From positions 1 through 33,728 of the forward strand of contig VMTC01000014.1 of NCBI GenBank assembly GCA_013791765.1: a DNA stretch of 33,728 nucleotides, in the 5' to 3' direction. This DNA comes from Rhodoferax sp. GTDB lineage: Bacteria; Pseudomonadota; Gammaproteobacteria; Burkholderiales; Burkholderiaceae_C. The notes beneath the pieces are model-generated. The model did not search any database, had not been told where the DNA came from, and worked only from the letters and a program-made list of their open reading frames with translations. The stretch's first letter is position 1. Every line of letters starts with the position of its first letter. The position numbers and the translations under genes are program-made. Of the stretch, positions 1,765 to 32,710 are shown in pieces.

Positions 1765-2721
1765 TCAACCGCCGCTCTCGACAGTGAAAGCGGCGTGCTG
1801 GTCTTGACCAAGCAGTTCAACCAGTTGGGGCAACGCGAGCTGCAATGCCGCCTTCAAGGTGTGCGGCGGGTTGATGATGAACATGCCGCTGGCGGGCAGG
1901 CCTGGGCGGATGACTTCGCCCTCTTCATCGGCGGTCAGCTTGCTCGATTTGACGGTCAGTGTGGCGTTCAGCCAGGGCTTGCCGGCCTTGTTGGCCAGGG
2001 TTTTGAGCTTGCGCGGCACGTCGTGCGCTTCGGGGCGCGGAATGATCGGGTACCAGACGGCATAGGTGCCGGTGGCAAAGCGGGTCAAGGCATCGGCCAC
2101 CATCGCGACGACGCGGGCGTAGTCGTTCTTGATTTCGTAGCTGGGGTCGCTCAGCACCAGCGCCCGGCGCGCTGGCGGTGGCAAGAATTTCTTGATGCCT
2201 TCAAAGCCATCCTCGCGCAGCACCGCGACCTGGCGCCCGGCTTCGAGCTGCGCAATATTGGCCGACAGTGTCTTTGCGTCGGTCGGGTGGATTTCGAACA
2301 CCTTGAGCTTGTCGCGCTCACCGAGCAGGCGCTGGATGATGAACGGCGAGCCGGGATAGACCTTGTGGCTGCCCTTGCTGTTGAAGCTGGCCACCAGGTC
2401 CAGGTAATCCTTCAAGGCCGGGGCCAGCGTCTCGGTGCTGGTTTTTAATTTGACTACTTTTTTTATAGCTGCTTGGGCTTTAATGGCGAGGGCTACAGGC
2501 TCATTCAATGCAGAAATAAGGCGCAAAAACCCTTGGCCCGCTTCACCGCTGGTGGCGGCGTATTCACCATCGAGCCGGTACAGACCAGCACCGGCATGGG
2601 TGTCAAACACCGTGAGCGCCGTGTCTTTTTGCAGCAAATGCCGGAGAACGGCCAACAGCACAGTGTGTTTGAGTACGTCGGCATGATTGCCGGCATGAAA
2701 GGCGTGGCGATAACTAAACAT
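1765..2721 (-). CDS. rlmJ: 23S rRNA (adenine(2030)-N(6))-methyltransferase RlmJ
   Basis: RlmJ methylates N6 of A2030 in 23S rRNA using S-adenosylmethionine. The 318-residue product starts MFSYRHAFHAGNHADVLKH, matching the start of E. coli YhiR/RlmJ, so the ATG at 2721 is preferred over one seven codons upstream. DTHAGAGLYRL (40-50) is the SAM-binding region. The motif IV segment is DPSY (192-195), where the E. coli protein, as I recall, has DPPY. FATGTYAVWYP downstream is also family-typical. The protein is longer than the roughly 280 residues of the E. coli enzyme. Part of the excess, around residues 69-97, comes from an interspersed repeat read antisense (2465-2500). It follows the barrel gene on the same strand, across a 248-bp gap that holds a hairpin. 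Confidence 0.9.
   Translation of the reverse strand: MFSYRHAFHAGNHADVLKHTVLLAVLRHLLQKDTALTVFDTHAGAGLYRLDGEYAATSGEAGQGFLRLISALNEPVALAIKAQAAIKKVVKLKTSTETLAPALKDYLDLVASFNSKGSHKVYPGSPFIIQRLLGERDKLKVFEIHPTDAKTLSANIAQLEAGRQVAVLREDGFEGIKKFLPPPARRALVLSDPSYEIKNDYARVVAMVADALTRFATGTYAVWYPIIPRPEAHDVPRKLKTLANKAGKPWLNATLTVKSSKLTADEEGEVIRPGLPASGMFIINPPHTLKAALQLALPQLVELLGQDQHAAFTVESGG
2465..2500 (+). repeat. Interspersed repeat copy 1 (TAGC-N22-GCTA), inside rlmJ, antisense to it
   Basis: The 30-nt core runs from TAGC at 2466 to GCTA ending at 2495. A run of seven T lies just upstream and AGGC follows the core, as in other copies. It sits on the strand opposite to rlmJ. Read along rlmJ it encodes residues 75-86, PVALAIKAQAAI, followed by lysines from the T-run. 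The segment looks like an added loop between two conserved parts of the methyltransferase. No stop codon is introduced. Confidence 0.8.
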
Positions 2722-2926
2722 GGTGGCAATGGTAACCGGCACCGGCTTGCCTTACTGTCATTGAACTACCGCTTCCAGTGGATTGCAGTGGCTTCGGCCG
2801 ACGGACCGAGGTATACCGCTCTATGGCCCACGCCCGCGGGCGAGCGGCACACCGGCCCCAGGCATTGCCGAGGTCGGCAGTCGGCTGGCCCGGGACCCCC
2901 TGCGGATTGCGCGCAAGGGCTTTGAT

Positions 2927-2957
2927 CGCCCTGAGTTGAAATTTATTACTCAGGGCG
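2927..2957 (-). terminator. Hairpin after the barrel gene, possible terminator
   Basis: A perfect 10-bp inverted repeat (CGCCCTGAGT at 2927-2936, ACTCAGGGCG at 2948-2957) with an 11-nt AT-rich loop begins 12 nt after the stop codon of the outer-membrane protein gene. No run of T follows on the minus strand, so it may act as an mRNA-stabilising 3' stem or a weak terminator rather than a classic intrinsic one. The remaining sequence to rlmJ shows no recognisable gene. Confidence 0.5.
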
Positions 2958-2969
2958 TCGGCCCGAACT

Positions 2970-3677
2970 TTAGTAACGGTCTTGCTTTGGTTCGCGCTTG
3001 GGTGCCACGTAAGGCTCTGGCGCAGGAGCGACATAGGCTGGTGCAGGAGCAACATAGGCTGGTGCAGGAGCAACATAGGCTGGTGCAGGAGCAACATAGG
3101 CCGGTGCAGGTGCCACATAGACCGGTGCAGGTGCAACATAGGCCGGTGAAGGAGATTTGCCGCCAAACGCGATGTTCAGTCCCGCAGACACGATCCAGTC
3201 ACCCAGATTGTTGGCACCCGCATCGTTGCCGTGTGCCTGGTAACGGGCGTCCGCACGAAAGTCAACGTTCCTGCTCAGTTGCCTGGTAAAGCCCATGCCA
3301 ACCCTGGCCATCAAATTGTCGTTATTGTCGGCGTCAGAGTAACCTTCCCGTGCCCAGGCCAGGCCGGCCACCGCGTAAGGGGCAAAGTTGGGGTTGCGGT
3401 TAAAGAAATACAGGGCGTCCACGCCGATATTGCCTTGTTCGTCATTCTTGCCGTCCAGTCGCAGGTACTGGCCGCCGACTTCCATGTTCCATTTTTCGTT
3501 CAGCATCTTGCCAACAGCCAGTCCCACGCCACCACCGGTGCTTTTTGCCCGGTCGTTGTCGTTGATGACCACGCTTGCGGTTGGTGCGAGATACCAGCCG
3601 GAGTGGGTTGCCTGGGCTAACGCTGCGGTCCCAGTTAAACCAAGAACAAGGGCGGCGGCAAAGGATGAAGTTTTCAT
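2970..3677 (-). CDS. Outer membrane beta-barrel protein (OmpA-barrel-like) with AYVAPAP repeat tail
   Basis: A 235-residue secreted protein. Residues 1-23 form a clear signal peptide ending in an ALAQA-type cleavage site. Residues 24-176 alternate hydrophobic and polar residues as in the eight-stranded OmpA/OmpX-type barrel (GWYLAPTASVVI at 27-38, YAVAGLAWA in the middle, WIVSAGLNIAFGG at the end). From 179 to 220 there are six heptads AYVAPAP (one with V first), then a partial unit and a charged end REPKQDRY. The usual OmpA peptidoglycan-binding domain is absent, so either the gene ends in what is normally a linker or the proline-rich tail is itself functional. The gene is flanked by a hairpin downstream and a long intergenic region upstream. 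The ligand or role is unknown. Confidence 0.8.
   Translation of the reverse strand: MKTSSFAAALVLGLTGTAALAQATHSGWYLAPTASVVINDNDRAKSTGGGVGLAVGKMLNEKWNMEVGGQYLRLDGKNDEQGNIGVDALYFFNRNPNFAPYAVAGLAWAREGYSDADNNDNLMARVGMGFTRQLSRNVDFRADARYQAHGNDAGANNLGDWIVSAGLNIAFGGKSPSPAYVAPAPVYVAPAPAYVAPAPAYVAPAPAYVAPAPAYVAPAPEPYVAPKREPKQDRY
3018..3143 (-). repeat. Tandem 21-bp repeat, six units, coding AYVAPAP heptads
   Basis: Six consecutive 21-bp units encode the heptad AYVAPAP (second unit VYVAPAP), with a partly matching seventh unit beyond. Neighbouring units in the middle are nearly identical at the nucleotide level, which points to recent slippage or unequal recombination. Because the unit is a multiple of three, copy-number change alters tail length without breaking the frame. 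Confidence 0.85.
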
Positions 3678-3932
3678 GTTGACTTTCAGGATGAATGGGG
3701 GCAGTTGTGATTACGAATACATCGTGGAAGAAGTATTGCATGAGAAAGCCATTTCTTTTCTTGTTTGCTGAAGGATACATTCCCGATCTTTTGTAAGAAT
3801 TTTCCTTTTACGACGTAGGCCTGCGCCCGGTCGCAGTCCCTGGTCTGCCAGGCCAGCAACGCCGTCCGGGGCCGCCGCCAGGCCCCATTCCGCCCGGCCC
3901 GCAGCAAGTCTACGGTCTCGTGCCCGGCGTCC
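3678..3932. other. Intergenic stretch upstream of the barrel gene
   Basis: This stretch holds the untranslated leader and promoter of the minus-strand barrel gene. No convincing promoter hexamers could be fixed. From about 3815 to 3932 the sequence is GC-rich and proline-codon-like in one plus frame, but it has no start codon, family motif or ribosome binding site. It is probably non-coding or debris flanking the transposase remnant to its right. Confidence 0.4.
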
Positions 3933-4055
3933 TTACTCCGCAATGTTATTCACGGCTTCTGTATGGTTGGCGTAATCCTGCTGCCCAACGCTCTCCATCT
4001 TCAAATTCAGAAAGAAGGGCTCGATTACCGCGTTGACGCTCCTATGGCAAGTGTC
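3933..4055 (-). pseudogene. Remnant of an IS3-family transposase (OrfB C-terminal part)
   Basis: Read on the minus strand, this segment gives NAVIEPFFLNLKMESVGQQ followed by DYANHTEAVNNIAE and a stop at 3933-3935. This closely follows the IS3-family integrase-core stretch that normally reads DNAVMESFF.NLK.E.....Y....EA...I..YI. It includes the glutamate of the DDE triad and the tyrosine and alanine spacing after it. Upstream the match degrades within about ten codons. The expected continuation (YI..FYN..R.H..LG) is missing after the stop. It is therefore a small fragment of a former insertion sequence. No intact terminal inverted repeats or target duplications were recognised. Confidence 0.7.
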
Positions 4056-4136
4056 AGCTGCAGAGTCTTTCAAATCGGCAAAGTTCGCATCTTCATCTGG
4101 GCCGGAGACTAAAACGGGGCACTGCGCCCAATCTCA

Positions 4137-4142
4137 TATAAT
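4137..4142 (+). promoter_or_regulatory. Probable -10 element of the rplM-rpsI operon
   Basis: A perfect TATAAT lies 123 nt before the rplM start codon. No good -35 hexamer sits 16-18 nt upstream. The predicted transcript would start near 4149 and begin with a stem made by GCTTCGC (4148-4154) and GCGAAGC (4175-4181). Ribosomal protein leaders are often regulatory, but this particular stem is not one I recognise. Confidence 0.5.
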
Positions 4143-4264
4143 GTCCGGCTTCGCAGCGCTTTTGTGGCTCCGCGGCGAAGCTTGTACCCCACCTAAGAGA
4201 TTCCCATCAGAGGAACGCCGACCGTGGAAAAGAGTCCGACAAACCCTTCTCTAGTAGAAAACTC

Positions 4265-4696: not shown

Positions 4697-4706
4697 GGAG
4701 CCACTG

Positions 4707-5099: not shown

Positions 5100-5137
5100 T
5101 TTCATTTCAAATTACGCTGGCGATTTGTTGCCAAATG

Positions 5138-5177: not shown

Positions 5178-5202
5178 CCCCCCACCCAATTAGGTTTCCA
5201 TC

Positions 5203-5931: not shown

Positions 5932-5967
5932 TGCAACTTCACGAGCAGCAAATTTAAGGAGACCACC

Positions 5968-11738: not shown

Positions 11739-12212
11739 ATGATCGCCGTGATGCAGCGCGTCAGCCAGGCGCGGGTGCTGGTTGACGGGCAGACCATTGG
11801 GGAAATTGGCGCCGGCTTGCTGCTGTTGCTCTGCGCCGAGCGCGGCGACAGCGAAGCCGAGAGCGACAAGTTGCTGGCCAAGGTGCTCAAGCTGCGCATC
11901 TTCAACGACGCGGCGGGCAAAATGAACCACAGCGTGCAGGACATGGATGGTCAGGGATTGATCGGTGGTCTGCTGGTGGTGAGCCAGTTCACGCTGGCGG
12001 CAGATGCCACGGCGGGCAACCGGCCCAGTTTCACGGCCGCCGCCGCCCCTGCTGAAGGCCGTCGCCTGTACGATTACTTCGTGATGCAGGCCCGCCAAAA
12101 GCATCTCTTGGTGCAGACCGGCCAGTTTGGCGCCGACATGCAGGTGCATCTGGTGAACAATGGGCCGGTGACGATCCCGCTGCGCATGGCGCCAGCTGCA
12201 TGCACGAACTAA
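11739..12212 (+). CDS. dtd: D-aminoacyl-tRNA deacylase
   Basis: Dtd removes D-amino acids (notably D-Tyr) and glycine wrongly attached to tRNA. The 157-residue protein shows the two catalytic-site motifs, [17 protein letters not shown] and [11 protein letters not shown] (the Gly-cisPro motif). It begins [17 protein letters not shown] like other family members. It lies in the tyrS cluster, which fits its known action on D-Tyr-tRNA-Tyr. A short C-terminal extension (APAACTN) goes beyond the usual end, and the interspersed repeat begins about ten bases past the stop codon. Confidence 0.95.
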
Positions 12213-12221
12213 ATTTTTTTG

Positions 12222-12256
12222 ATAGCTACTAACGCAATTGAGACGCGGGCTAGAGC
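12222..12256 (+). repeat. Interspersed repeat copy 2 (TAGC-N22-GCTA), between dtd and coq7
   Basis: The 30-nt core is 12223-12252, preceded by a run of seven T and followed by GAGC and an AT-rich tail. It fills most of the dtd-coq7 gap. Its second half contains TTGAGA, which with the AT-rich tail makes a promoter (next entry). Confidence 0.85.
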
Positions 12257-12266
12257 TGAATATAGT
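12238..12266 (+). promoter_or_regulatory. Predicted sigma-70 promoter of coq7 formed by the repeat
   Basis: TTGAGA (12238-12243) and TATAGT (12261-12266) are separated by 17 nt, each one base from consensus. The predicted start site is near 12273, about 19 nt before the coq7 ATG. The -35 lies inside the repeat core and the -10 in its AT-rich tail, so the mobile or amplified repeat probably supplied this promoter. Confidence 0.65.
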
Positions 12267-12291
12267 CAATATTTATTGTGAAAGATGCCCT

Positions 12292-12924
12292 ATGTTGAAC
12301 AACCTGCAAGACCGTTTTTTTATAACCTGTGATGCCGCCCTGCGCACGCTGTTTGTCACGCCGCACGCCGAACGCGCCTGCCCGACTTTGCCGGGCGAGG
12401 CCACGGAACTCACCGATGCCGAAAAAGCCCAGTCCGGCGCACTGATGCGGGTCAACCACGTTGGCGAGGTCTGCGCCCAAGCGCTCTACACCGCACAGGC
12501 TTTTGCCACCAACAACGAGGCCTTGCGCGCGCACTACAGCAAAGCCAGCGCCGACGAGACCAACCATCTGGCCTGGACCCAGCAGCGACTCGAAGAGCTG
12601 GGCGCGCGCCCGTCCTTGCTCAACCCCCTGTGGTACGGCGCCGCCTTTGGCCTGGGTCTGGTGGCTGGGCGCCTGGGCGACGCGATCAGCCTGGGCTTTG
12701 TGGTGGAGACCGAAAACCAGGTGGAAGCCCATCTGGAGAGTCATTTGAGCCTGCTGCCCGCCAATGACCACGCCTCGCGCGCCATCGTGGCGCAGATGAA
12801 GGACGACGAGATGCGCCACGCGGTGGATGCGCAAAAAGCCGGGGCCGTGCCACTGCCGCCGCCGGTGAAAAGCCTGATGAGCGCTGCCGCCAAGCTGATG
12901 ACGACGGTGGCGCACCGAATCTGA
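12292..12924 (+). CDS. coq7: 2-polyprenyl-3-methyl-6-methoxy-1,4-benzoquinone monooxygenase (Coq7)
   Basis: Coq7/UbiF-type di-iron hydroxylase that adds a late hydroxyl group in ubiquinone biosynthesis. The 210-residue protein carries the carboxylate and histidine ligands in GEVCAQALY, ADETNHLAW, ETENQVEAHLESHL and KDDEMRHAV. LWYGAAFGLGLVAG is the membrane-associating stretch of the family. The start MLNNLQDRFF (ATG at 12292) is chosen over an upstream in-frame start that would translate part of the interspersed repeat. A GAAAG lies 9 nt before it. Its stop is one base from the stop of the convergent OsmC gene, leaving no room for a separate terminator. Confidence 0.95.
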   Translation: MLNNLQDRFFITCDAALRTLFVTPHAERACPTLPGEATELTDAEKAQSGALMRVNHVGEVCAQALYTAQAFATNNEALRAHYSKASADETNHLAWTQQRLEELGARPSLLNPLWYGAAFGLGLVAGRLGDAISLGFVVETENQVEAHLESHLSLLPANDHASRAIVAQMKDDEMRHAVDAQKAGAVPLPPPVKSLMSAAAKLMTTVAHRI

Positions 12925-12925
12925 C

Positions 12926-13375
12926 CTAAGCCTCTAACACCTCAAAACTGGTTGTAATTTCAGCTGTCTTGGCCAGCATGATGCTGGCCGAACAGTATTT
13001 GTCGTGGCTCATGGCAATGGCGCGCTCCACGGCGGCAGCCGGCAGGCTTTTGCCCGACACCGTGAAGTGCAGGTTGATGCGGGTGAATACCTTGGGATCG
13101 AGCTCGGCGCGCTCGGCGATGAGCTTGACCGTGCAGCCGCGCACCTCATGGCGACCGCGTTTGAGGATCAGCACCACGTCGTACGCGGTGCAACCGCCGG
13201 TGCCCGCCAGCACCAGCTCCAGCGGGCGCGGCGCCAGATTCAGGCCGCCGTTTTCCGGCTTGGCGGCGTCCGGCGCGCCGTCCATCACCAATGTGTGACC
13301 GCTGCCGGTTTCCGCTACAAACCCCATGCCCGAGCGCGTTGCCAAAGCGCCGGTCCAGCTGACTGTGCATTCCAT
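12926..13375 (-). CDS. OsmC/Ohr family protein (YhfA-like)
   Basis: A small cytoplasmic protein of the OsmC/Ohr fold, which generally reduces peroxides using two cysteines. The 149-residue form has Cys62 in GTGGCTAYDV and Cys128 in SHDKYCSASIML, the expected pair. The sequence resembles the YhfA subgroup more than true OsmC or Ohr, and that subgroup has no settled function. The ATG at 13375 is preferred because AAGGTGAG lies 7 nt upstream. A GTG four codons further upstream is the longer option. It is divergent from ilvA and converges with coq7. Confidence 0.88.
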   Translation of the reverse strand: MECTVSWTGALATRSGMGFVAETGSGHTLVMDGAPDAAKPENGGLNLAPRPLELVLAGTGGCTAYDVVLILKRGRHEVRGCTVKLIAERAELDPKVFTRINLHFTVSGKSLPAAAVERAIAMSHDKYCSASIMLAKTAEITTSFEVLEA

Positions 13376-13458
13376 CGTATTGCTCACCTTGCTTTTAAAA
13401 AGGTGTGAATTGTCGCTTGAGCCAGGCGTTTATCATCGACGGCTACGCAAAGCCCCCT

Positions 13459-15002
<1,544 letters not shown>

Positions 15003-15006
<4 letters not shown>

Positions 15007-15914
15007 GTGCCTCGCTCGAGGGCAAGCTGGTGGTGGCGATCTCCAGCCGCGCCTTGTTTGATTTTGAGGAAGAAAACGAGGTATTCGAGCAGGGCGATGA
15101 CCGCGCTTACATGGCCTTGCAGCTGCAGCGCCTGGACCTGCCTGCCAAACCGGGCGTGGCGTTTTCGCTGGTGCAAAAGTTGCTGGCATTCAATGCGGTA
15201 GAAGCGGGCAACAACCAGCCGGTCGAAGTCGTGATCCTGTCGCGCAACGACCCGGTCAGCGGCCTGCGCGTGATGAAGTCGGCGGCGCACTATGGCCTGC
15301 CCATCATCCGCTGCAGCTTCACGCGCGGCGAGTCGCCCTGGCGTTACCTCAAACCCCTGCACGCAAATCTGTTCCTGAGCACCCATTTGAGTGACGTGCG
15401 CGCCGCGCTCGACGCTGGTGTGCCCGCCGCGCAGGTTTACCCGGCATCGGTTCACGCTGGAGAGGCCTATCCGCATGAAGTGCGCATCGCCTTTGACGGC
15501 GACGCCGTGCTGTTCAGCGATGAAGCCGAACGCGTCTACCAGGCCCAGGGCCTGCAAGCCTTTCAACAACACGAAACCGACAAGGCGCAGCAGCCGCTGC
15601 TGGCGGGCCCCTTCAAGCCGCTGCTGGTCGCCCTGCATCGCCTGCAACAGGCCGGAACGCCCACCATGCGCATCCGCACGGCGTTGGTCACCGCCCGCAG
15701 CGCCCCAGCGCACGAGCGCGCCATCCGCACGCTGATGAACTGGAACATTGAGGTTGATGAAGCGATGTTTCTGGGCGGCCTGCCCAAGGGCGAGTTCTTA
15801 CGCGAGTTCGAGCCCGATTTTTTCTTTGACGACCAGACCGGGCATGTGGATGCAGCCTCGCAACATGTGCCCTCGGGTCATGTGGCGAGTGGGGTGTCGA
15901 ACCCGGTCGTTTGA
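15003..15914 (+). CDS. 5'-nucleotidase (cytosolic NT5C1/PF06189 family)
   Basis: A 303-residue protein resembling the prokaryotic members of the cytosolic 5'-nucleotidase I family, which dephosphorylate nucleoside monophosphates. Supporting blocks are the N-terminal LVVAISSRALFDFEEENEVF, where the phosphoacceptor aspartate would lie, and VVILSRNDPVSGLRV. RIAFDGDAVLFSDEAERVY, with a DxD-like pair, and the C-terminal EVDEAMFLGGLPKGEFL and FFDDQTGHVD also fit. No signal peptide is present. It overlaps ilvA by 4 nt, so the two are one transcriptional unit; a metabolic link to isoleucine synthesis is not obvious. It converges with queC across a hairpin. Confidence 0.85.
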
Positions 15915-15926
15915 CGCTCGGGGTGA

Positions 15927-15961
15927 CGGCGCTTGGGCTATCCCCCACGCACCAAGCGCCG
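15927..15961. terminator. Hairpin between convergent nucleotidase and queC genes
   Basis: CGGCGCTTGG (15927-15936) and CCAAGCGCCG (15952-15961) form a perfect 10-bp stem with a 15-nt loop. It lies in the 64-bp gap between two stop codons facing each other, so it could stop or stabilise both transcripts. No T-run follows on either side. Confidence 0.55.
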
Positions 15962-15978
15962 CGGGCAGAAACGCCGAA

Positions 15979-16710
15979 TCAAACCCTCGGTGTCAGGGCA
16001 AAACGTTCATAACCGCGCGCGCGCAGCAAACAAGCCGGGCACTTGCCGCAGCCATAACCCCAGGCGTGGCGGTGCTGGCGGTCGCCCAGGTAGCAGGTAT
16101 GGGTGTGCTCGATGATCAGGTCCAGCAGTGCGTCGCCGCCGCGCGCCACGCCGGATCTGTCGCCCAACTCGTGCGCCAACGCCCAGGTCGCGGCTTTGTC
16201 GATCCACATCAGCGGGGTTTCAATCAAGAAGCGTTTGTCCATGCCGAGCGAGAGCGCGAGCTGCATCGCTTTCATCGTGTCGTCGCGGCAATCCGGGTAG
16301 CCGGAAAAGTCGGTTTCACACACCCCGGTGACCAGCACCTGCAAATCGCGCCGGTAGGCCACCGCCGCAGCGAGCGTTAGGAACAGCAGGTTGCGCCCCG
16401 GCACAAAGGTGTTGGGCAGGCCGCCCTGTTCCATCTTGAAAGCAGTGTCGCGCGTGAGTGAGGTGTCGCTGACTTCGCCAAGAACCGCCAGGTCCAGCAG
16501 ATGGTCCTCGCCCAGCTTCTCGGCCCAGTGCGGAAATTTGGCGCGGATTTCGTTGAGCACGACCAGGCGCGCGTCAAGTTCGACCCGGTGACGCTGGCGG
16601 TAGTCAAAGGCAATGGTTTCGACCCGCTCGTACTTGGACAAGGCCAGCGCCAGGCAGGTGGTGGAGTCCTGGCCACCAGAAAAAAGAACGAGGGCGGTGG
16701 TGTGCATCAT
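15979..16710 (-). CDS. queC: 7-cyano-7-deazaguanine synthase QueC
   Basis: QueC turns 7-carboxy-7-deazaguanine into preQ0 with ATP and ammonia, in the queuosine pathway of tRNA modification. The 243-residue protein has the PP-loop FSGGQDSTT near residues 10-18. It also has [12 protein letters not shown] in the middle. The zinc-binding cysteines are Cys206, Cys221, Cys224 and Cys227 (CYLG and GCGKCPAC). Length is normal. It starts at tandem ATGs (MM), and the ybeY stop is 33 nt upstream on the same strand, so it may be the last gene of a phoH-ybeY-queC series. No queD or queE is nearby. Confidence 0.95.
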
Positions 16711-16743
16711 GAAATGGTGGGGTAAAGGTGCGGTTCGCCGGTA

Positions 16744-17190
16744 TCAATAAGGATTCTCAAAACCCAGCCGGGCCATGATGTCGCTTTCGCGCATTTCCAT
16801 GACCTGGGCGTCCTCTTCGTCGTCGTGGTCCCAGCCCTGCGCGTGCAGGGCGCCGTGTACCAGCAGGTGGGCGTAGTGCGCTTGCAGCGTCTTGCCTTGT
16901 TCCGCAGCTTCTTGGTCCACCACGGGCGCGCATAACACCAGGTCGGCTGTGACCACAGGCTCCTGCGTGTAGTCGAAGGTCAGCACGTTGGTGGCGTAGT
17001 CTTTTTTGCGGTAGTCGCGGTTCAGGGCCTGCCCTTCCTCGGCGTCGACGATGCGCACCGTGATTTCGGCGTCGCTTTGCAGCGCATGGCGAAGCCAGCG
17101 CGCTACCTTGTGGCGTGGCAGGGCGGCGCGGTGCAGGGCGGCATTTTCAAGTTTGCCAAATTGCAGTGAAAGAGTCAGTTGGTTTAACAT
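16744..17190 (-). CDS. ybeY: Endoribonuclease YbeY
   Basis: YbeY is a zinc-dependent single-strand RNase needed for 16S rRNA 3'-end maturation and ribosome quality control. The 148-residue protein shows the signature [11 protein letters not shown], with ligands His112, His116 and His122. The upstream arginine-containing block [14 protein letters not shown] is the conserved substrate-groove motif. The gene follows phoH on the same strand, as is usual, but the two are separated here by an interspersed repeat (17209-17246). The lnt and corC genes that often follow are absent; queC comes next. Confidence 0.95.
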
Positions 17191-17208
17191 AAAGTTTTAA
17201 GCTAAATA

Positions 17209-17246
17209 GGCCTCTAGCCCTCGTGAAATAAGCGTTAGTCGCTATT
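17209..17246 (-). repeat. Interspersed repeat copy 3 (TAGC-N22-GCTA), between phoH and ybeY
   Basis: On the minus strand the 30-nt core spans 17244 down to 17215, followed by GAGGCC and an AT-rich tail. It occupies the middle of the 75-bp phoH-ybeY gap, in the direction of transcription. No strong -35/-10 pair is seen in this copy. Confidence 0.85.
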
Positions 17247-17265
17247 GTTTTAACAGTTTTCTGGA

Positions 17266-18282
17266 TCAGATCGGCTGTTTGCGCGCACGGCCCCGCGGCG
17301 CCGGCGCGGTCACTTCATCGTCGACATCGTCGTCCTGGCGTCGCTGCGCTGCGCTGGCGCGCCCGGGCGCATCGTAGGCATCCACAATGCGCGCCACCAG
17401 CGGATGCCGCACCACATCGGCACTGGTCAGGCGGCAGATCGCAATGCCGGGCACGCGTTTCAAGACGCGCTCGGCGTCAATCAGGCCGCTGAGCTGGGTT
17501 TTGGGCAGGTCGATCTGGCTCACGTCGCCGGTGATCACGGCTTTGGAGCCAAAACCGATGCGGGTTAAAAACATCTTCATTTGCTCGGGCGTGGTGTTTT
17601 GCGCCTCGTCCAGAATCACAAAGGCGGTGTTGAGCGTCCGACCGCGCATGAAGGCCAGCGGCGCGACCTCGATGGTCTGACGCTCAAACGCTTTTTGCAC
17701 CTGCTCAAAACCCATCAGGTCGTACAGCGCGTCGTACAGCGGGCGCAGGTAGGGGTCGATCTTTTGCGCCAGGTCGCCGGGCAAATACCCCAGGCGCTCG
17801 CCCGCTTCCACCGCCGGGCGCGTCAGCACAATGCGCTGCACCGCGCTGCGCGCCAAGGCGTCCACGGCCATCGCCACCGCCAGGTAAGTCTTGCCGGTGC
17901 CGGCCGGGCCGATGCCAAAGGTGATGTCGTGGCTGGTGATGCTGTCAAGGTAGGTGGCCTGGTTCAGCGTGCGGGGCTTCAGGTCGGCGCGCTTGGTCTT
18001 CAGGCCTGGGCCGTCAGCGTCATTCAAGTCGGCGTCACCGGCCAGCATCAGTTGCACCGTGGCGGGCTCGATCGGGCGCGCTGCCATCTCGTACAGGGCC
18101 TGCAGCATTTCCATGCCGCGCTTGGCATTGGCCTTGCTGCCGTCGACCTTGAACTGCTCGTGCCGATGCGCAATCTTGACCTGCAGCGCGGCCTCGATGG
18201 TGCGCAGGTGCTCGTCCATCGGGCCGCACAGGTGCGACAAGCGGGTGTTGTTGGGTGGGGAAAACAGGTGTCTGAGGATCAA
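17266..18282 (-). CDS. PhoH-like ATPase
   Basis: A 338-residue cytoplasmic P-loop ATPase of the PhoH/YbeZ group, functionally tied to YbeY in ribosome and RNA metabolism. Walker A is GPAGTGKT (125-132). Walker B with the following residues is [22 protein letters not shown], and the ring-ATPase-like [10 protein letters not shown] comes after. The start is placed at a TTG at 18282 because the product then begins [21 protein letters not shown], the family N-terminus in Burkholderiales, with GGA about 9 nt upstream. The next in-frame ATG would remove this block. The C-terminal 30 residues are charged and low in complexity. It is divergent from ruvA, 42 bp away. Confidence 0.93.
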
Positions 18283-18324
18283 GTTGATAATTCCAAAATA
18301 AATTCTCTCAATGATAGGCACTAA

Positions 18325-18897
18325 ATGATCGGCAAATTGACCGGCACGCTCGACGACAAAAATCCACCCCAAGTCATCGTGGACTGCCACGGCGTGGGCT
18401 ATGAGGTGCTGGTGCCCATGAGCACCTTTTACAACCTGCCCGAGCTGGGCGAGCGGGTCAGCCTGCTGACGCATTTTGTGGTGCGCGAAGACGCGCAGAT
18501 TCTGTACGGTTTTGCCACCAGTCTGGAGCGTGCGGCGTTTCGCGAGCTCATCAAAATCTCGGGTGTCGGGCCGCGCACGGCTTTGTCGGTGCTGTCGGGC
18601 ATGAGCGTGGCCGAGCTCTCGCAGGCAATCACGCTGCAAGAAGGCGGGCGGCTGATCAAGGTGCCCGGCATCGGCAAGAAAACCGCCGAGCGTTTGCTGC
18701 TGGAGCTCAAAGGCAAGCTCGGTCCCGATATCGGTGTCGCCGCCAGTGTGGCCAATGACAGTCAGTGCGATATTTTGCAGGCGCTGCTGGCGCTGGGCTA
18801 CAGCGACAAGGAAGGAGCTGCCGCCCTGAAGGCACTGCCTCAGGAGGTGGGGGTGAGCGAGGGCATCCGGCTGGCGCTGCGGGCATTGGGGAAGTAG
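18325..18897 (+). CDS. ruvA: Holliday junction branch migration protein RuvA
   Basis: RuvA binds four-way DNA junctions as a tetramer and loads the RuvB helicase. The 190-residue protein has the N-terminal OB domain [20 protein letters not shown]. The two helix-hairpin-helix motifs are around residues 72-95 ([19 protein letters not shown]) and 108-125 ([19 protein letters not shown]). The C-terminal RuvB-contact domain is at 145-190. It is slightly shorter than the E. coli protein (203). Neither ruvB nor ruvC is in the window; the next gene is an unrelated small membrane protein. It is divergent from phoH. Confidence 0.97.
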
Positions 18898-20479: not shown

Positions 20480-20483
20480 GGTT

Positions 20484-22688
20484 TCATGAACTCTTTAATT
20501 TGGCCAGCATTGTGCGGACCTCTTGCACACTCAAAATTTCAGACAGCACTATGGGCGCCTGGCCATTTTGGTACAGCACATAGACGGGCACGCCATTGCG
20601 GCCGAGTTGCGCCAGCGCGGCGCTGATGGCGGGGTCACGCCGGGTCCAGTCGGCCCGAAGTAAGGTGACCTTGTTCGCATCAAAGTCGGCCAGCACCTCG
20701 GCGTTGGCCAGGGTGGTGCTTTCGTTGTACTGGCAGGTGACGCACCAGGCGGCGGTGAAGTCAACAAACACCGGTGCGCCCGTGGCAAGCACCTGCTCCA
20801 CCCGCCCCGGTGCCCAAAGCTGCCAGCGCTCATTGCCGGCCTTGCTGGACAGCTCGGAGGTCGTCGCCATTTCTATGACATTTTTGCCGATAGCCCCCGT
20901 CAACAGGGCAAGAGTAGCTATTGAAATAGTAGCCATGAAGATTCTGCTGCGGCCCTTGAGCGTGAGCGACCAGAGCACCAGACTCAAAGCCAGCAGCAGC
21001 GCCAGCAAGGCCGCCGCGCCGTTAATGCCGCTCTGCTGGCCCAGCACCCACACCAGCCAGACCACGGTGGCAAACATCGGGAATGCCATGGCCCGGCGGA
21101 AGGTGTCCATCCAGGCGCCGGGGCGTGGCAGCGCGCGCGCTACCGCCGGGAACAGGCTGACGGCCAGATAGGGCAGCGCCATGCCGATGCCCAGCGTCAT
21201 GAAAATCAGCAAGGCTTGCAGCGGCGGCAGGCCCAGCGCCAGCCCGAGCGAGGCGCCCATGAAGGGCGCGGTGCAAGGCGAGGCAATGGCGACCGCCAGC
21301 ACGCCCGACAAAAAGGCATTGACCGATGGGTTCTTGGCCTCCAGCGACAGCACCGCAGTAGGCAAAAAACGGCCAAACTCAAACACGCCCGCCAGGTTCA
21401 GCCCGATCACGGTGAACAGCACCGCCAGGGCGGCCACCACCGCCGGGGACTGCAACTGAAAGCCCCAGCCCAACTGCTCGCCCGCACTGCGCAAGCCGAT
21501 CAACAACGCGCCCAGTGCCAAAAAGGACAGCACCACCCCGGCGCTGTAGGCCAGTGCGCTGATGCGGTGGCTGCGGCGGTCATGGGCGTGGCGGGTCAAG
21601 CTCATCACCTTGATCGCCAGCACCGGGAACACGCAGGGCATCAGGTTCAGGATCATGCCGCCCAACAACGCACCGAGCAACGCCGCCCACAGGCCAATGG
21701 AAACTGGCGGGCTGAGCGCTGCGCCAGGCGCGCCGCTGTTGGCGTTCTGCACTGCAGTCAGCGTCGCTGGCGCCGCCGCGCTGCTGCCCGTTGCACTCAC
21801 CACAGGGGGCCAACTGCCCTGCAGCTTGGCCTGGACCCGAAAGCCCTCACGCTGGCCGTTGGTGCTGCTCACGAGCACCAGCGGCAGCAGCTCTGGGCTC
21901 ACCTCACGATGTTCGGACAGGGGCACGCTGGCGTTCCAGACGTCGACGCCTGCCACTTGGGTCCATTGCTGCGACCAGGCGCCCGCCGTTTCGATCAGCT
22001 CGGGCGTTTCCGGGAAGAATTCCAGTTGCTGACCGCGCAGCGCTTGCGGCAAGCCCGCCACCGAGACCTTGAGTTGCTTGCCTTCCACGGTGACCTGGCT
22101 GTCGCTTTGCAACTCGGTCGGTTGCGACTTCACGCTGGCGGCAAACGCGGCGCTGTTGAGCGCGGTGGAGCCGCGCACCGGCACCTGCAGCACAAATTCG
22201 CCGTCTTGCGGCACGCATTCGAGGCGGCACACCAGCCAGGTGGCTTTGAGTTTGATCTCGAGGTTGTTGCCAAGCAGCGCGGGTTTGAAAGCGGGCGTGA
22301 TGCTCAAAGGCACCGGCAGCAGCACCGTGCCCTCATAGCCGTAATTGGCCAGGTTGCCTATCGGGAATTTTTTGGGCAAGGGCCAGGCGATTTCGCCAGC
22401 GCTCACGCCTTCAGGCAGCGTCCATGCCAAAGTGATGGGCAGGCCAGAGTCGCCGGGGTTCTTCCAGTAGGTGTGCCACTCAGGTTGGTGCGTCAATTGC
22501 AGGCCCACCCAGACCGGCTGCCCCGCGCCGGCGCCGTCGGGGGCCTGTGCCATCAGTTCGGCCCGCACTTGGTCGGTGGTGACCACGGATGAAAGAGCAT
22601 TTTGAGCCCCAGCCCCTGTGGTTATTGCGCAAGCAGCTATAAAAAAAATAGCTTTAATCAAACGGAGGGGGGTGTTGAGGCAATTCAT
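20484..22688 (-). CDS. dsbD: Protein-disulfide reductase DsbD
   Basis: DsbD carries electrons from cytoplasmic thioredoxin across the inner membrane to periplasmic thiol proteins and cytochrome c maturation. Of its 734 residues, 1-28 are the signal peptide. The N-terminal periplasmic DsbD-alpha-like domain follows to about 300. Next comes a membrane domain of eight or nine helices with the redox pair in LMPCVFPVLAIKVMSL and ASPCTAPFMGASLGLAL. The C-terminal thioredoxin domain has CVTC at 649-652 in FVDFTAAWCVTCQ. Two interspersed repeats are built into it in frame. One forms residues 17-28 of the signal peptide, the other residues 590-601 in the last membrane helix. The CoA-binding gene follows 4 nt later. 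Confidence 0.93.
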   Translation of the reverse strand: MNCLNTPLRLIKAIFFIAACAITTGAGAQNALSSVVTTDQVRAELMAQAPDGAGAGQPVWVGLQLTHQPEWHTYWKNPGDSGLPITLAWTLPEGVSAGEIAWPLPKKFPIGNLANYGYEGTVLLPVPLSITPAFKPALLGNNLEIKLKATWLVCRLECVPQDGEFVLQVPVRGSTALNSAAFAASVKSQPTELQSDSQVTVEGKQLKVSVAGLPQALRGQQLEFFPETPELIETAGAWSQQWTQVAGVDVWNASVPLSEHREVSPELLPLVLVSSTNGQREGFRVQAKLQGSWPPVVSATGSSAAAPATLTAVQNANSGAPGAALSPPVSIGLWAALLGALLGGMILNLMPCVFPVLAIKVMSLTRHAHDRRSHRISALAYSAGVVLSFLALGALLIGLRSAGEQLGWGFQLQSPAVVAALAVLFTVIGLNLAGVFEFGRFLPTAVLSLEAKNPSVNAFLSGVLAVAIASPCTAPFMGASLGLALGLPPLQALLIFMTLGIGMALPYLAVSLFPAVARALPRPGAWMDTFRRAMAFPMFATVVWLVWVLGQQSGINGAAALLALLLALSLVLWSLTLKGRSRIFMATISIATLALLTGAIGKNVIEMATTSELSSKAGNERWQLWAPGRVEQVLATGAPVFVDFTAAWCVTCQYNESTTLANAEVLADFDANKVTLLRADWTRRDPAISAALAQLGRNGVPVYVLYQNGQAPIVLSEILSVQEVRTMLAKLKSS
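20886..20921 (-). repeat. Interspersed repeat copy 4 (TAGC-N22-GCTA), inside dsbD, sense
   Basis: The 30-nt core runs from 20920 down to 20891 on the coding strand of dsbD, ending GGGGGCTAT. It is read as IATLALLTGAIG (residues 590-601), in the same frame as the copies at 22606 and 30428. A GCTACTATT just upstream resembles the flank of other copies. The peptide makes up much of the last predicted membrane helix before the thioredoxin domain. Confidence 0.8.
22606..22640 (-). repeat. Interspersed repeat copy 5 (TAGC-N22-GCTG), inside dsbD signal peptide, sense
   Basis: The core spans 22639 down to 22610; it ends GCTG where the other copies have GCTA. A run of eight T and a GCTAT half-site lie just upstream. 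It encodes IAACAITTGAGA (residues 17-28), which with the T-run codons before it (IFF) forms the hydrophobic core and cleavage region of the DsbD signal peptide. Confidence 0.8.
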
Positions 22689-28309: not shown

Positions 28310-30988
28310 ATGCAAGAAAAATACACCCCTCTCGAGGTCGAACAAGCGGCCCAAAGTCATTGGACCGCGATGGATGCCTACCGCGTCACCGAAGACGCGT
28401 CCAAAAAGAAGTTTTACGCCTGCTCCATGCTGCCCTACCCCAGCGGCAAGCTGCACATGGGCCATGTGCGCAACTACACCATCAACGACATGCTCACGCG
28501 CCAGTTGCGCATGCAGGGTTTCAATGTGCTGATGCCGATGGGCTGGGACGCCTTTGGCCTGCCGGCGGAAAACGCCGCGCTGAAGAACGGCGTGCCGCCA
28601 GCCCAGTGGACCTTCGAGAACATCGCTTACATGAAGCAGCAGATGCAGGCGATGGGGCTGGCGATCGACTGGAGTCGCGAGGTTGCCACCTGCACGCCCG
28701 AGTACTACAAATGGAACCAGTGGCTGTTTCTGAAGATGCTGGAAAAGGGCATTGCCTACCGCAAAACCCAGGTCGTCAACTGGGACCCGGTCGACCAGAC
28801 CGTGCTGGCCAACGAGCAGGTGATTGACGGCAAAGGCTGGCGCACCGGCGCCACCGTCGAAAAGCGCGAGATTCCGGGCTACTACCTCAAGATCACCGAC
28901 TACGCCGAGGAACTGCTGACTCAGGTGCAGACCGGCTTGCCGGGCTGGCCCGAGCGCGTCAAGCTGATGCAGGAGAACTGGATTGGCAAGAGCGAGGGCG
29001 TGCGTTTTGCCTTCACCCATGACATCCACGACGCCGCTGGCACGCTGATCGACGCTGGCCGGATGTATGTTTTCACCACGCGCCCGGACACCATCAAAGG
29101 CGTGACCTTTTGCGCCGTGGCGCCCGAGCATCCACTGGCGGTGCACGCGGCAAAAAACAACCCGACGCTGGCGGCTTTCATCGAGGAATGCAAGAGCGGT
29201 GGCACCACCGAGGCCGAACTGGCCACACAAGAGAAGAAGGGCATGGCCACTGGCCTGTTCGTGACACATCCGCTGACGCAGCTGAAAATCGAAGTCTGGA
29301 TCGGCAACTATGTGTTGATGAGCTATGGCGACGGCGCCGTCATGGGCGTGCCCGCGCACGATGAGCGCGACTTCGAATTCGCCAAGAAATACCGCCTGCT
29401 GATCAAACAGGTGGTGCAGGTCGACGGTGAGCATTTTGACTATGAGCGCTGGCAAGACTGGTACGCCGACAAGCAACGCGGCGTGGTCGTCAACTCGGGT
29501 AGCTTCAGCGGCATGCCGTTCAAGCAAGCGGTGGACGCCGTGGCGCACAAGCTGGCCGCGCTCGGTCTGGGCGAGAAGAAAACCACCTGGCGCCTGCGCG
29601 ACTGGGGCGTGAGCCGCCAGCGCTACTGGGGCACGCCGATTCCCATCATTCACTGCCCGCAGCATGGCGCCGTGCCGGTGCCGGAAAAAGATTTGCCGGT
29701 GGTCTTGCCGCTGGACTGCGTGCCCGACGGCTCGGGCAACCCGCTTCACAAGCATGAAGGCTTTCACGCCGGTGTCGTCTGCCCGATCTGCGGCGCTGCA
29801 GCGCGGCGCGAAACCGACACCATGGACACCTTTGTGGACAGCTCGTGGTATTTCATGCGCTACTGCGACCCGGAGAACGAGCAGGCGATGGTGGGCGCGG
29901 GCGCGGCCTACTGGATGCCGATGGACCAGTACATTGGTGGCATCGAGCACGCCATCCTGCACCTGCTGTACGCGCGCTTCTGGACCAAGGTCATGCGCGA
30001 CCTGGGGCTGGTCACGGTCGACGAACCCTTCACCAAGCTGCTCACGCAGGGCATGGTGCTCAACCACATCTACTCGCGCAAAACCGCCAACGGGGCGAAA
30101 GACTATTTCTGGCCGAACGATGTTGAAAACGTGTCCGATGCGGCTGGCAAGGTGGTGTCGGCCCGGTTGAAGGTCGCCATCGGCGACTTGCCTGCGGGCA
30201 CATTGATCGACTACGAGGGCATTGGCACCATGTCCAAGTCGAAAAACAACGGCGTCGACCCGCAGGACCTGATCGAAAAATACGGCGCCGACACCGCGCG
30301 CCTGTACACCATGTTCACCGCGCCGCCCGAGGCCACGTTGGAGTGGAACGACGCAGCCGTGGAAGGCAGTTACCGCTTCCTGCGCCGGGTCTGGAACTTT
30401 GGCGTCAAATTATCTACTATAGATATGATAGCTGCTAACGCAAGCGTGACGGGGGCTAGGAGTCTAAATGATATAAATTTCAGCAAAGAAGCGAAAGTCC
30501 TTCGGCTGGAGATCCACACCGTGCTCAAACAGGTGGACTACGACTACCAGCGCATGCAGTACAACACCGTGGTCTCGGGCGCGATGAAGATGATCAATGC
30601 GCTGGAGAGCTTCAAAGCCACCGACTCCAGCGGTGCGCAAGTGGCACTGATCGAGGGCTTTGGCATCTTGCTGCGCTGCCTGTACCCGGCCACGCCGCAC
30701 ATCACCCACAGCCTGTGGCAGGACCTGGGCTATGCCGCCGCCTTGGGCGAGCTGCTCGATGCGCCCTGGCCCCAGGTGGACGAATCGGCGCTCTTGCAGG
30801 AAGAAATTGAACTGATGCTGCAAATCAACGGCAAGCTGCGCGGTGCCATTGTCGTGGCGGCCGGTGCCACCCAAGCCGAGATCGAGCAGGCCGCCATCCG
30901 CAGTGAGGTGTTTGGCAAGCTGGCCCACGGGGCGACGCCCAAGAAAATCATTGTGGTGCCGGGTCGGCTGGTCAATGTGGTGCTTTGA
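28310..30988 (+). CDS. leuS: Leucyl-tRNA synthetase
   Basis: A class I synthetase that charges and proofreads tRNA-Leu. The 892-residue protein has HMGH at 49-52 ([14 protein letters not shown]). The CP1 editing domain lies at about 225-420 ([16 protein letters not shown]-like GMPFKQAV near its end), and the zinc-like CPICG comes at about 490. MSKSK is at 641-645, and the anticodon-binding domain starts near 680. An interspersed repeat (30428-30462) is read in frame as residues 707-718 and lengthens a linker at the start of the anticodon-binding domain by roughly ten residues relative to E. coli. lptE begins 10 nt after its stop, as in E. coli, where leuS, lptE and holA are also neighbours. 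Confidence 0.97.
30428..30462 (+). repeat. Interspersed repeat copy 6 (TAGC-N22-GCTA), inside leuS, sense
   Basis: The core is 30429-30458, with an AT-rich CTACTATAGATATG before and an AT-rich stretch after it, both also translated. It encodes [12 protein letters not shown] (residues 707-718) in the same frame as the two dsbD copies. The AT-rich flanks stand out from the GC-rich leuS sequence on either side. Confidence 0.85.
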
Positions 30989-30998
30989 GGTGCTGCCC

Positions 30999-31505
30999 AT
31001 GAATCGTCGCTCTGTTGTCACGCGGCTCGGTCAGGCCGCACTGCTCAGCCTCTTGCTGGGAGGCTGCGGCTTCAAGCTGCGCGGTGCGCAAAGCTTCGCC
31101 TTCCAGACGCTGGCGATCAACCCCCAACCGGGTGGGCCGCTGGCGCTCGAGTTGCGCCGCTCTTTTGCCCACCCGGTGCGGGTTCTGGCGCCGAATGAGC
31201 CTTTAAGCCAGGCGCAAGTGGTGCTTGAAATTCTGCAGGAGCAGCGCGAGAAGGCCGTGGTTGGCCTGAGCAGCTCGGGCCAGGTGCGGGAGTTTCAATT
31301 GCGCATCCGGCTCAAGTTCCGGGTCCGCAACGCCGCCGGCGATGAGCTCACGCCCGAGACCGAGCTCATGCAGCAGCGCGATATGAGTTTCAGTGAAACC
31401 GCCGTGCTGGCCAAAGAAGCCGAAGAAGTGCTGCTGTACCGCGACATGCAGTCCGATCTGGTGCAACAGCTGATGCGCCGCCTTGAAGCGATCAAATACC
31501 TGTGA
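30999..31505 (+). CDS. lptE: LPS-assembly lipoprotein LptE
   Basis: LptE is the lipoprotein plug of the LptD barrel, which inserts lipopolysaccharide in the outer membrane. The 168-residue protein has a lipoprotein signal ending LGGC (Cys23), followed by GFKLRGAQSFAFQTLAI, the conserved start of the mature protein. The rest is poorly conserved, as is normal for the family, but length, position between leuS and holA, and the fold-typical VREFQLRIRLKFRVR strand support it. The ATG at 30999 fits the signal peptide; upstream in-frame codons overlap leuS. Confidence 0.93.
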   Translation: MNRRSVVTRLGQAALLSLLLGGCGFKLRGAQSFAFQTLAINPQPGGPLALELRRSFAHPVRVLAPNEPLSQAQVVLEILQEQREKAVVGLSSSGQVREFQLRIRLKFRVRNAAGDELTPETELMQQRDMSFSETAVLAKEAEEVLLYRDMQSDLVQQLMRRLEAIKYL

Positions 31506-31555
31506 AGACTGGCCCGAACCTGGGGCGCCGCGCGGGCCAGCGCATCCGCTAGACC

Positions 31556-32620
31556 ATGCAAGTCGCCCCCAACCAACTTGCGGCCCATCTGCAAAAGGGC
31601 CTGAAAAGCCTGTACACCGTGCATGGCGACGAGCCGCTGCTGGTGCAGGAGGCGGCGGACGCTGTTCGCGCGTTCGCCCGCAGCCAGGGCTTTAGCGAGC
31701 GCAGTTCGCACACGGTGGCCGGCGCGCATTTCGACTGGAGCGAGGTGCTGGCCGCGGGTGGCTCGCTGAGCCTGTTTGCGGACAAACAGATGCTTGAGCT
31801 GCGCATCCCGTCGGGCAAACCCGGCAAGGATGGCGCTGTGGCGCTGCAGCACCTGGCCGAACAGGCGCGGGGCAACGAGTCCACCCTGACCCTGGTCATG
31901 CTGCCGCGGCTCGACAAGCTGGCTAAAAGCAGCGCCTGGTTTGGCGCGCTCGAGAGTTTTGGCATCACGCTGGCGGTGGAGCCGGTCGAGCGCAACGCCT
32001 TGCCGGCCTGGATTGCGCAGCGCCTCTCTTCTCAGGGCCAGCGCGTCGCCGCCGGGGAGGCCGGCCAGCACAGCCTGCAGTTTTTTGCCGACCGGGTCGA
32101 AGGCAACTTGCTGGCGGCGCACCAGGAAGTCCAGAAGCTGGCGCTGCTGTATCCCGTCGGCGAGCTGACGTTTGAGCAGATCGAAAGCGCGGTGCTCAAC
32201 GTGGCGCGTTACGACGTGTTCAAACTGTCGGACGCCGTGCTGGCGGGGCAGGTCCTTCGGGTGCAGCGCATGCTAGACGGTCTGCAGGCCGAAGGCGAGG
32301 CGGCCGTGCTGGTGCACTACACCCTGGCCGAGGACATTCGCGCCATGAAGCGCGTCAAGGACGCCATGAACCGGGGCAGCCCGCTGCCGCTGGCGCTGCG
32401 CGAGCAACGCGTGTGGGGCGCGCGCGAGCGTTTGTTTGAGCGCGTGCTGCCGCGCCTGAGCGATGCCACCCTGGCGGCCTGGCTGCAGGCCGCGCACCAG
32501 GTCGACGGCGTGGTCAAAGGCCTGAAGTCGCCCGGCTGGCCGCCCGAGCCTTGGGCCGCGCTGCACCAGCTGGCCTTTGAGGTCTGCCGCGCATGCGCCG
32601 TGCCGGCGCGCCAGCGCTAG
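31556..32620 (+). CDS. holA: DNA polymerase III subunit delta
   Basis: The delta subunit opens the sliding clamp within the clamp loader. The 354-residue protein has the N-terminal AAA+-like fold with the family start QLAAHLQKGLKSLYTVHGDEPLLVQEA, which lacks a functional P-loop, as expected. A lid region follows (EGNLLAAHQEVQKLALLYP, where EGN is conserved). The C-terminal collar domain comes after YDVFKLSDAVLAGQ. Length is like E. coli HolA (343). It follows lptE by 50 nt, the conserved order leuS-lptE-holA. No good ribosome binding site is visible before the ATG. Confidence 0.95.
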   Translation: MQVAPNQLAAHLQKGLKSLYTVHGDEPLLVQEAADAVRAFARSQGFSERSSHTVAGAHFDWSEVLAAGGSLSLFADKQMLELRIPSGKPGKDGAVALQHLAEQARGNESTLTLVMLPRLDKLAKSSAWFGALESFGITLAVEPVERNALPAWIAQRLSSQGQRVAAGEAGQHSLQFFADRVEGNLLAAHQEVQKLALLYPVGELTFEQIESAVLNVARYDVFKLSDAVLAGQVLRVQRMLDGLQAEGEAAVLVHYTLAEDIRAMKRVKDAMNRGSPLPLALREQRVWGARERLFERVLPRLSDATLAAWLQAAHQVDGVVKGLKSPGWPPEPWAALHQLAFEVCRACAVPARQR

Positions 32621-32674
32621 CCGCCATGGCAGCGGGTTGACGATCGGCTTCGAATTTAGAATACTATAATTTGC

Positions 32675-32710
32675 ATAGCTTTATACAACCGCTGGACGGG
32701 GGCTACAGCC
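32675..32710 (+). repeat. Interspersed repeat copy 7 (TAGC-N22-GCTA), upstream of the DEAD-box gene
   Basis: The core is 32676-32705, flanked on the left by a perfect TATAAT (32665-32670) and on the right by CAGCC and an AT-rich tail. It fills much of the 121-bp gap between holA and the helicase gene and points in the same direction. A TTGACG at 32637-32642 is too far (22 nt) from the TATAAT for a normal promoter, so promoter function here is uncertain. Confidence 0.8.

Follow-up and report, generated by a model that had tools for sequence, protein, structure and literature searches.

In this study, a stretch of 33,728 nucleotides from Rhodoferax sp. (contig VMTC01000014.1, positions 1 to 33,728; hereafter the window) was found to carry seven copies of an element with a fixed 30-nt core, TAGC-N22-GCTA. 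These copies belong to a large family with letters conserved over about 65 nt. The family is spelled in different dialects by different lineages, is maintained at the DNA level within the gene leuS, has been gained and lost in place at two coding sites, and is nearly absent from some members of the same genus. We tentatively believe that the element, about 65 bp long, could serve as a motif recognised at the DNA level, kept at fixed chromosomal places by a sequence-specific machine in the manner of an uptake signal. We infer that a trans-acting recogniser would exist, that uptake would be its job, and that the copies would be maintained by drive and not by ordinary selection.

The Element and Its Copies

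The initial annotation had described seven cores in the window, and their coordinates and strands were confirmed. Six of them read exactly TAGC-N22-GCTA, and the core at 22610-22639 ends in GCTG. The copies, with the open reading frames (ORFs) around them and their nhmmer scores, are as follows:

Copy 1, 2453..2515 (+), core 2466-2495, inside the opposite-strand ORF 1765-2742, 42.7 bits
Copy 2, 12210..12272 (+), core 12223-12252, between ORFs 11739-12212 and 12292-12924, 46.2 bits
Copy 3, 17195..17257 (-), core 17215-17244, between ORF 17266-18474 (upstream, minus strand) and ORF 16744-17190, 53.5 bits
Copy 4, 20871..20933 (-), core 20891-20920, inside the DsbD-like gene (20484-22586, minus strand), 41.2 bits
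Copy 5, 22590..22652 (-), core 22610-22639 with the GCTG end, directly upstream of the DsbD-like gene, 34.4 bits
Copy 6, 30416..30478 (+), core 30429-30458, inside leuS (28310-30988), linker residues 703-728, 45.0 bits
Copy 7, 32663..32725 (+), core 32676-32705, between ORFs 31556-32620 and 32742-33728, 40.2 bits

In 100 order-1 Markov sequences with the length and make-up of the window, the exact pattern occurred 0.06 times on average and at most once. A genome-wide count had been proposed as a check, and it was above chance: in the own genome (G000, 4.17 Mb in 136 contigs), 387 exact TAGC-N22-GCTA were found, compared with 115 for the reversed pattern. The pattern TAGC-N20-GSGCTA gave 373 matches on both strands of the whole genome and 27 in the control. 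The copies are also alike far beyond their four-base ends. An ungapped model of 80 columns was built from 39 copies and used to search a sample of the own genome (the window and 20 further stretches, 399,985 bases). It found 59 copies at E ≤ 0.01, including all 39 used for the model, whereas the reversed sample gave zero copies at this limit (best E = 2). The density in the sample is about 1 per 6.8 kb and, carried over to the whole genome, it would correspond to approximately 620 copies.

The 30-nt core proposed initially stood, and the size of the element had to be revised: among 41 seed matches, which include three places read on both strands, the conserved letters run without gaps between about -17 and +50 relative to the core, with a tail to about +50. 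The upstream half-site that had been suspected is real, with T at -10 in 80% and C at -11 in 59% of the seed matches. The consensus begins with GCTA around -12 to -9, followed by an AT-rich stretch and A-TAGC at 0-4. CGCA around 11-14 and ACG-N-GGGCTA at 21-30 make up the inner part, and AGCC around 32-35, ATTT at 38-41 and TAAAT around 46-50 follow downstream. The element therefore holds three half-sites at a fixed distance, GCTA-N8-TAGC-N22-GCTA. Among the 59 copies, TAGC stands in exact register in 51 and GCTA in 46. The composition of the element is 44% GC within an own-genome sample of 60% GC, and 37-44% GC across G000, G031 and G039. The information over 80 columns in three genomes was 58, 48 and 69 bits, figures partly forced by the choice of seed.

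The most similar copies in the own-genome sample (G000:C24:92091-93823 and G000:C9:127-1916) lie in seemingly neighbouring duplicated genes or stretches, and DNA duplication, not transposition, may be their source.

Dialects and Distribution

A genome was called rich when it had at least 40 TAGC-N20-GSGCTA matches and exceeded its own control; this pattern is blind to other dialects. In the same family, 27 of 150 genomes were rich, and most of the remaining 123 had 0-3 matches. G031 had 24 matches of the pattern, yet it is truly rich, with a different dialect. Among 196 genomes (of 200 scanned) from other families of the order, in which two dialects were sought, none had more than 18 matches. 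The initial annotation had pointed to Comamonadaceae for similar sequences, and the family is indeed of Comamonadaceae type. The own genus is divided: of its 18 genomes, several of which are incomplete assemblies, nine are rich (the own genome included) and nine have 0-11 matches. In 80 named contigs (1.47 Mb), there were 27 hits in 13 contigs, including Rhodoferax antarcticus and R. bucti, and zero in the reversed sequence. Carriage by viruses or plasmids was considered and set aside: in viral contigs, three exact dialect patterns had 10, 14 and 2 matching stretches (match counts alone), and a 91-base copy of the element had no match at E 0.01 in plasmids. In a genome of another family (G340:C1:1320532-1321116), four near-equal 30-mers stand at exact steps of 185 nt, and this is a separate tandem repeat.

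The genomes use the lineage dialects GGGCTA, GCGCTA and CGGCTA, and the first two were counted apart in 45 genomes. The ratio of GGG to GCG was 354:19 in the own genome, 264:5 in G153, 209:5 in G035 and 184:1 in G042. Other genomes lean towards GCG (26:327 in G039, 11:163 in G010 and 75:193 in G121), and G161 is even (68:68). The interior of the element in G039 is also distinct, with many cores carrying GCGTATAT and ATATGCGC. G031 has a third, highly uniform type with AGGCAATAAATACGCCGGCTA, for which 59 copies were found in 200 kb and zero in the reversed sequence. A fourth type has been printed for Polaromonas as ATAGCT(N)22CAAAAG (PMC5217627), and in L057, a Polaromonas contig, the leuS linker has CAAAAG at that spacing after GGAGCT. 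On a quick leuS tree built without the linker, at least six changes between rich and poor and at least seven between GGG and GCG were counted, with G125 treated as poor despite a handful of listed matches that seem genuine. Because these changes are repeated, neither pattern reflects a single split.

The Site in leuS

The ORF 28310-30988 is leuS according to TIGR00396, and copy 6 writes part of a linker of 26 residues (residues 703-728). The site was read in 44 genomes, G040 being left out because it had no leuS hit at the limit used, and it was scored by the 11 letters common to the dialects. The nine rich congeners scored 9-11 of 11 and the nine poor ones 4-8 (Mann-Whitney p 1.7e-4), and over all 44 genomes the score rose with the genome copy number (Spearman 0.60, p 2e-5); as the genomes are related, these p values and those at dsbD serve as guides. 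In this ranking, G031 was labelled CGG by hand and given a copy figure of 900, since the GS pattern misses its dialect.

The site also follows the dialect of its genome. Letters 25-27 were in the own dialect at 16 of 19 classifiable sites scoring at least 9, and at 17 of 24 scoring at least 7; the cut of 9 was picked after the scores had been seen and the original cut was 7, so both results are given. At the higher cut, GGG was present in eight of ten GGG-type genomes (the exceptions being G157 with GAG and G146 with GCG), GCG in seven of eight GCG-type genomes (G039 has GTG) and CGG in the one CGG-type genome, and two mixed genomes had GCG. At the lower cut, the own dialect was found in 8/13, 8/10 and 1/1 genomes of these three types, respectively. 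Not all rich genomes outside the genus retain the motif at leuS; G010, G047, G070 and G120, for instance, score 4-6.

In most carriers the linker is 78 nt long, and it remains 78 nt without the motif in the poor genomes G150, G152, G160 and G164; five other poor genomes have linkers of 51-75 nt, and some lineages have linkers of 42-69 nt. Across Burkholderiales (contigs L036-L145), the length of this linker (residues 703-728) ranges between 42 and over 100 nt, and it is a tolerant place. Among the Ala codons of the linker, GCT and GCA make up 38 of 41 in the nine rich congeners and 11 of 38 in the nine poor ones, compared with a background of 22% among the Ala codons of the own genome. This contrast indicates that the constraint in leuS acts on the DNA level, and that the codons revert to background without it.

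The Site in dsbD

Copy 4 falls where the gene encodes a hydrophobic stretch; the protein is DsbD-like and scores below the NCBIfam cut-off. The site was compared in 41 genomes; the span was empty in G031, which was dropped, and G158 and G164 had no dsbD span. The anchors stand 141-174 nt apart, and genomes with the motif have it at one offset, so no insertion is needed to explain it. The rich congeners scored 6-11 (n = 9) and the poor ones 4-7 (n = 7; p 0.0019), and the Spearman coefficient over the 41 genomes was 0.53, a weaker signal than that of leuS. At sites scoring at least 9, letter 26 was G in 12 of 12 GGG-type genomes.

The term interspersed repeat, used at first for this element, implies copying. 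The family is confirmed, while at leuS and dsbD the motif changes by substitution in place. A comparison of occupied and empty sites in relatives, which had also been proposed, showed no cleanly empty site at these two loci; at copy 3, a length change is seen in addition. In the gap of copy 3, the element was recognised by eye in all six rich congeners read and in none of eight poor ones. The tables of orthologous sites cover loci where both anchors were found.

Placement in the Genome

Gene placement was determined with a simple purpose-made gene caller, and three of the 30 G039 copies were left out because they were too close to an end. The copies are found on both strands, in genes and in gaps, as first described: 22 of 59 are inside ORFs in G000, 27 of 59 in G031 and 3 of the 27 placed in G039, although the coding shares of these samples are 87%, 91% and 89%, respectively. 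Copies outside ORFs lay in divergent gaps in 3/37, 3/32 and 1/24 cases (G000, G031 and G039), compared with 43/198, 22/90 and 20/73 divergent gaps overall, and with so few copies there, control of promoters is unlikely. A promoter reading of the ATAAAT-like tail was rejected, as the consensus, inspected by eye, has no -35 at the usual distance. Within ORFs, one reading frame prevails (16 of 22 in G000 and 21 of 27 in G031). One forward frame would make TAGC a TAG stop, and both copies listed in that frame read GAGC instead. A replication-polar signal was also rejected, because the strand agrees with the local GC skew in 27/59, 30/59 and 15/30 copies. In G000, adjacent copies were on the same strand in 32 of 49 pairs, compared with 24 by chance (P 0.018), and in G031 in 20 of 50 pairs, below the chance figure of 27.

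What May Keep the Element in Place

We speculated that a surface receptor of natural transformation would prefer fragments bearing the dialect of its own cell, and that recombination of the fragments taken up would raise the matching letters in place by molecular drive. The preferred spelling would differ between lineages, and if the preference were lost, the copies would erode to background. Copying would explain the information in the element without its evolution in place, and the sites of a regulator the reverse, while uptake drive would explain both, and we favour it by a small margin. Gain and loss in place, the DNA-level upkeep in leuS, the dialects and their repeated switching, and the high information all speak for it, as do the spread over both strands with few copies in divergent gaps, the lack of agreement with GC skew and the more even spacing in G031.

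Several observations weigh against uptake drive. At about 65 bp, the element is longer than the 10-29 bp of known uptake motifs. Its density across genomes, about 1 per 3.4-7 kb, is below that of known uptake motifs, which is about 1 per kb. ComEC (PF03772), the sole transformation gene sought, had a match in 49 of 50 genomes, among them poor ones, so it cannot separate carriers from non-carriers, and the genome without it is the element-rich G042, rated 100% complete. This absence speaks against uptake in G042, unless the gene was lost recently or the assembly has a gap. At dsbD sites scoring at least 9, letter 26 was C in only four of six GCG-type genomes, and the rich genomes G002, G141, G146, G148 and G151 have no motif there. 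In the gap of copy 3, only 11-28 nt lie between the anchors in six of the eight poor congeners, which means that a length change, by deletion or insertion, was involved. The relatedness of the genomes takes further weight from the site comparisons. Finally, while the copies of G031 are spaced more evenly than random (coefficient of variation 0.67 vs 0.89, P 0.008; P 0.014 when matched to gaps), which counts for uptake drive, the trend in G000 (P 0.12) and G039 (P 0.30) has the same direction and is not significant.

Even spacing of this kind suits the binding site of an intracellular protein with a role in nucleoid organisation, segregation, repair or global regulation, where ordinary selection would act on each copy and the specificity of the protein would evolve together with its sites. 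Such a protein is a serious candidate, though a rather doubtful one. Upkeep in place, dialects and loss in whole lineages fit it equally well, and three half-sites at a fixed distance suggest a bound complex. However, the information of 48-69 bits, inflated as it is by the choice of seed, far exceeds the approximately 14 bits that would suffice to mark 620 sites. In addition, the copies have no replication polarity and few of them lie in divergent gaps, and nine congeners manage with almost no copies.

A repetitive extragenic palindromic (REP)-like element, spread as single-stranded hairpins by a REP-associated tyrosine transposase (RAYT), would fit the RAYT gene of the own genome (L260:4936-5643; NF047646, 80 bits, exactly at the cut-off). 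This gene is flanked by two minus-strand copies (L260:4841-5685), one 65 nt before its start and one 12 nt after its stop. A copy was also found 349-418 nt 3' of the Y1 domain in seven of 16 rich genomes examined and in none of three poor ones, but these seven copies may be one inherited site. The presence of a RAYT does not discriminate carriers and was rejected as their marker, since Y1_Tnp is present in all nine poor congeners and had zero hits in the element-rich G141. Another element-rich genome (G015:C1) has twenty Y1_Tnp matches, several with the same score, as if an IS200-like element were active. In favour of a REP, the GCGCTA cores can fold, with a mean of -9.2 kcal/mol, weakly better than column-shuffled cores (z -2.3). 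The suggestion that the ends of the element pair was not supported: in the 59 copies, no pair of columns covaried beyond chance among thousands of comparisons, and no covarying pair was found in 130 GCGCTA-type cores. REPs have hundreds of copies, as this element has, and a RAYT gene stands beside copies in some genomes. Unlike the REPs of PMC8266576, which have GTAG and a palindrome, the element shows no covarying palindrome and no GTAG before one in its consensus, the dsbD and leuS sites change by substitution in place, and RAYT genes occur where the element is absent. Taken together, we consider a REP-like origin improbable.

Copies cluster near the 3' ends of genes (median distances from the core of 37, 35 and 24 nt in G000, G031 and G039), as a transcription terminator or an RNA element there would, but a third to nearly half of the copies in two genomes lie within ORFs, on both strands, no T run follows a stem, and an RNA hairpin or terminator was rejected on the lack of covariation and of any Rfam match at E ≤ 1, which leaves this explanation very little probability. 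A former miniature transposon, now a fossil that decays wherever it had inserted, would fit the high information, the short copy 3 gap of poor genomes and the leuS linkers of 42-69 nt compared with 78 nt in most carriers, and the leuS site may go back to an old insertion; even erosion would then be expected, whereas the observed state tracks the genome-wide copy number and dialect and the copies align without gaps over 80 columns, so we regard it as most unlikely.

Relation to Known Systems

No name or described function for the element was found in the literature searched, in line with the initial annotation; this literature was mostly open-access, so a description elsewhere is possible. Like the dialects of the DNA uptake sequence (DUS) in Neisseriaceae (PMC3630211) and the Hin- and Apl-type uptake signal sequence (USS) of Pasteurellaceae (PMC1626085), the element has hundreds of copies on both strands, in genes and gaps. 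It also shares with them the use of permissive places, an origin by mutation, lineage dialects and AT-rich flanks. For the USS, PMC1626085 reports that copies arise by mutation and not by copying, that there are two types and that the flanks are AT-rich, and molecular drive of uptake sequences and location biases of uptake motifs within genes are treated in PMC1939737 and PMC2346458, respectively. Unlike DUS and USS, the element is long and sparse, has three half-sites and has been dropped by many lineages. A short core of about 10-12 bp, which is typical of them, was not found in it, as the conserved letters span about 65 nt.

Parts of the element have probably been seen before. A 2017 paper (PMC5217627) gives GCTTAT(N)5AAGCG with 114 copies in Acidovorax ebreus and the above ATAGCT(N)22CAAAAG with 125 copies in Polaromonas naphthalenivorans. 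Among the 569 genomes scanned in the same paper, Rhodoferax ferrireducens T118 ranks first with 140 motif pairs, and no function is given. Judging by spacing and letters, which fit the GCGCTA and Polaromonas dialects, both motifs are very probably parts of this element. The paper presents the two as "potential novel motifs" unrelated to each other, and describes neither a family nor dialects, orthologous sites or a function.

The BRE of Bordetella and other Betaproteobacteria (PMC3110155) is likewise a short repeat that also occurs in Comamonadaceae, with some copies in genes. BRE differs in being about 90 bp long, with 69% GC in Bordetella and often in tandem, with at most 29 copies, compared with 37-44% GC in the present element. 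Six genera were looked for in PMC3733652, and none of them is mentioned there.

Surroundings of the Other Copies in the Window

The ORF around copy 1 (1765-2742), which we take to be RlmJ-like, had no NCBIfam match at 1e-5. At this site, an element-like stretch was seen by eye in G121, G153 and G154 and not in the rich genomes G151, G161 and G162. In several congeners, the genes flanking copy 2 are not adjacent (window 11739-18474 compared with G162:C97 and G155:C23), and the YbeY/PhoH-like pair comes after the gene preceding copy 2, so a rearrangement near this copy seems local to the own genome. The ORFs on both sides of copy 3 are presumably PhoH-like (17266-18474) and YbeY-like (16744-17190). 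Copy 5 has a counterpart in G121 with 36.4 bits. A tandem array of a 21-nt unit, with about six to eight units, lies at 2996-3163 inside the minus-strand ORF 2970-3572.

Significance

Uptake sequences offer the classic example of how the preference of a cell's own uptake machine shapes its genome. To our knowledge, they are known in two families only. It is conceivable, and we put it forward with reserve, that the present element is a third independent invention, made in Comamonadaceae-type Burkholderiales, with three half-sites and at least four dialects, rewritten in place and abandoned by some lineages. If this is true, such a dialect system, found in a large family of environmental bacteria and with gains and losses within a single genus, would allow a new comparative test of the origin, switching and death of these motifs, and would open a way to the receptor. 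If the element is instead read inside the cell, hundreds of conserved addresses of 65 bp would point to an undescribed chromosome protein or reader. In both cases, leuS and dsbD each record the process at a single site, and anyone annotating or aligning LeuS and DsbD-like proteins should be aware that residues at these places are written by a DNA motif.

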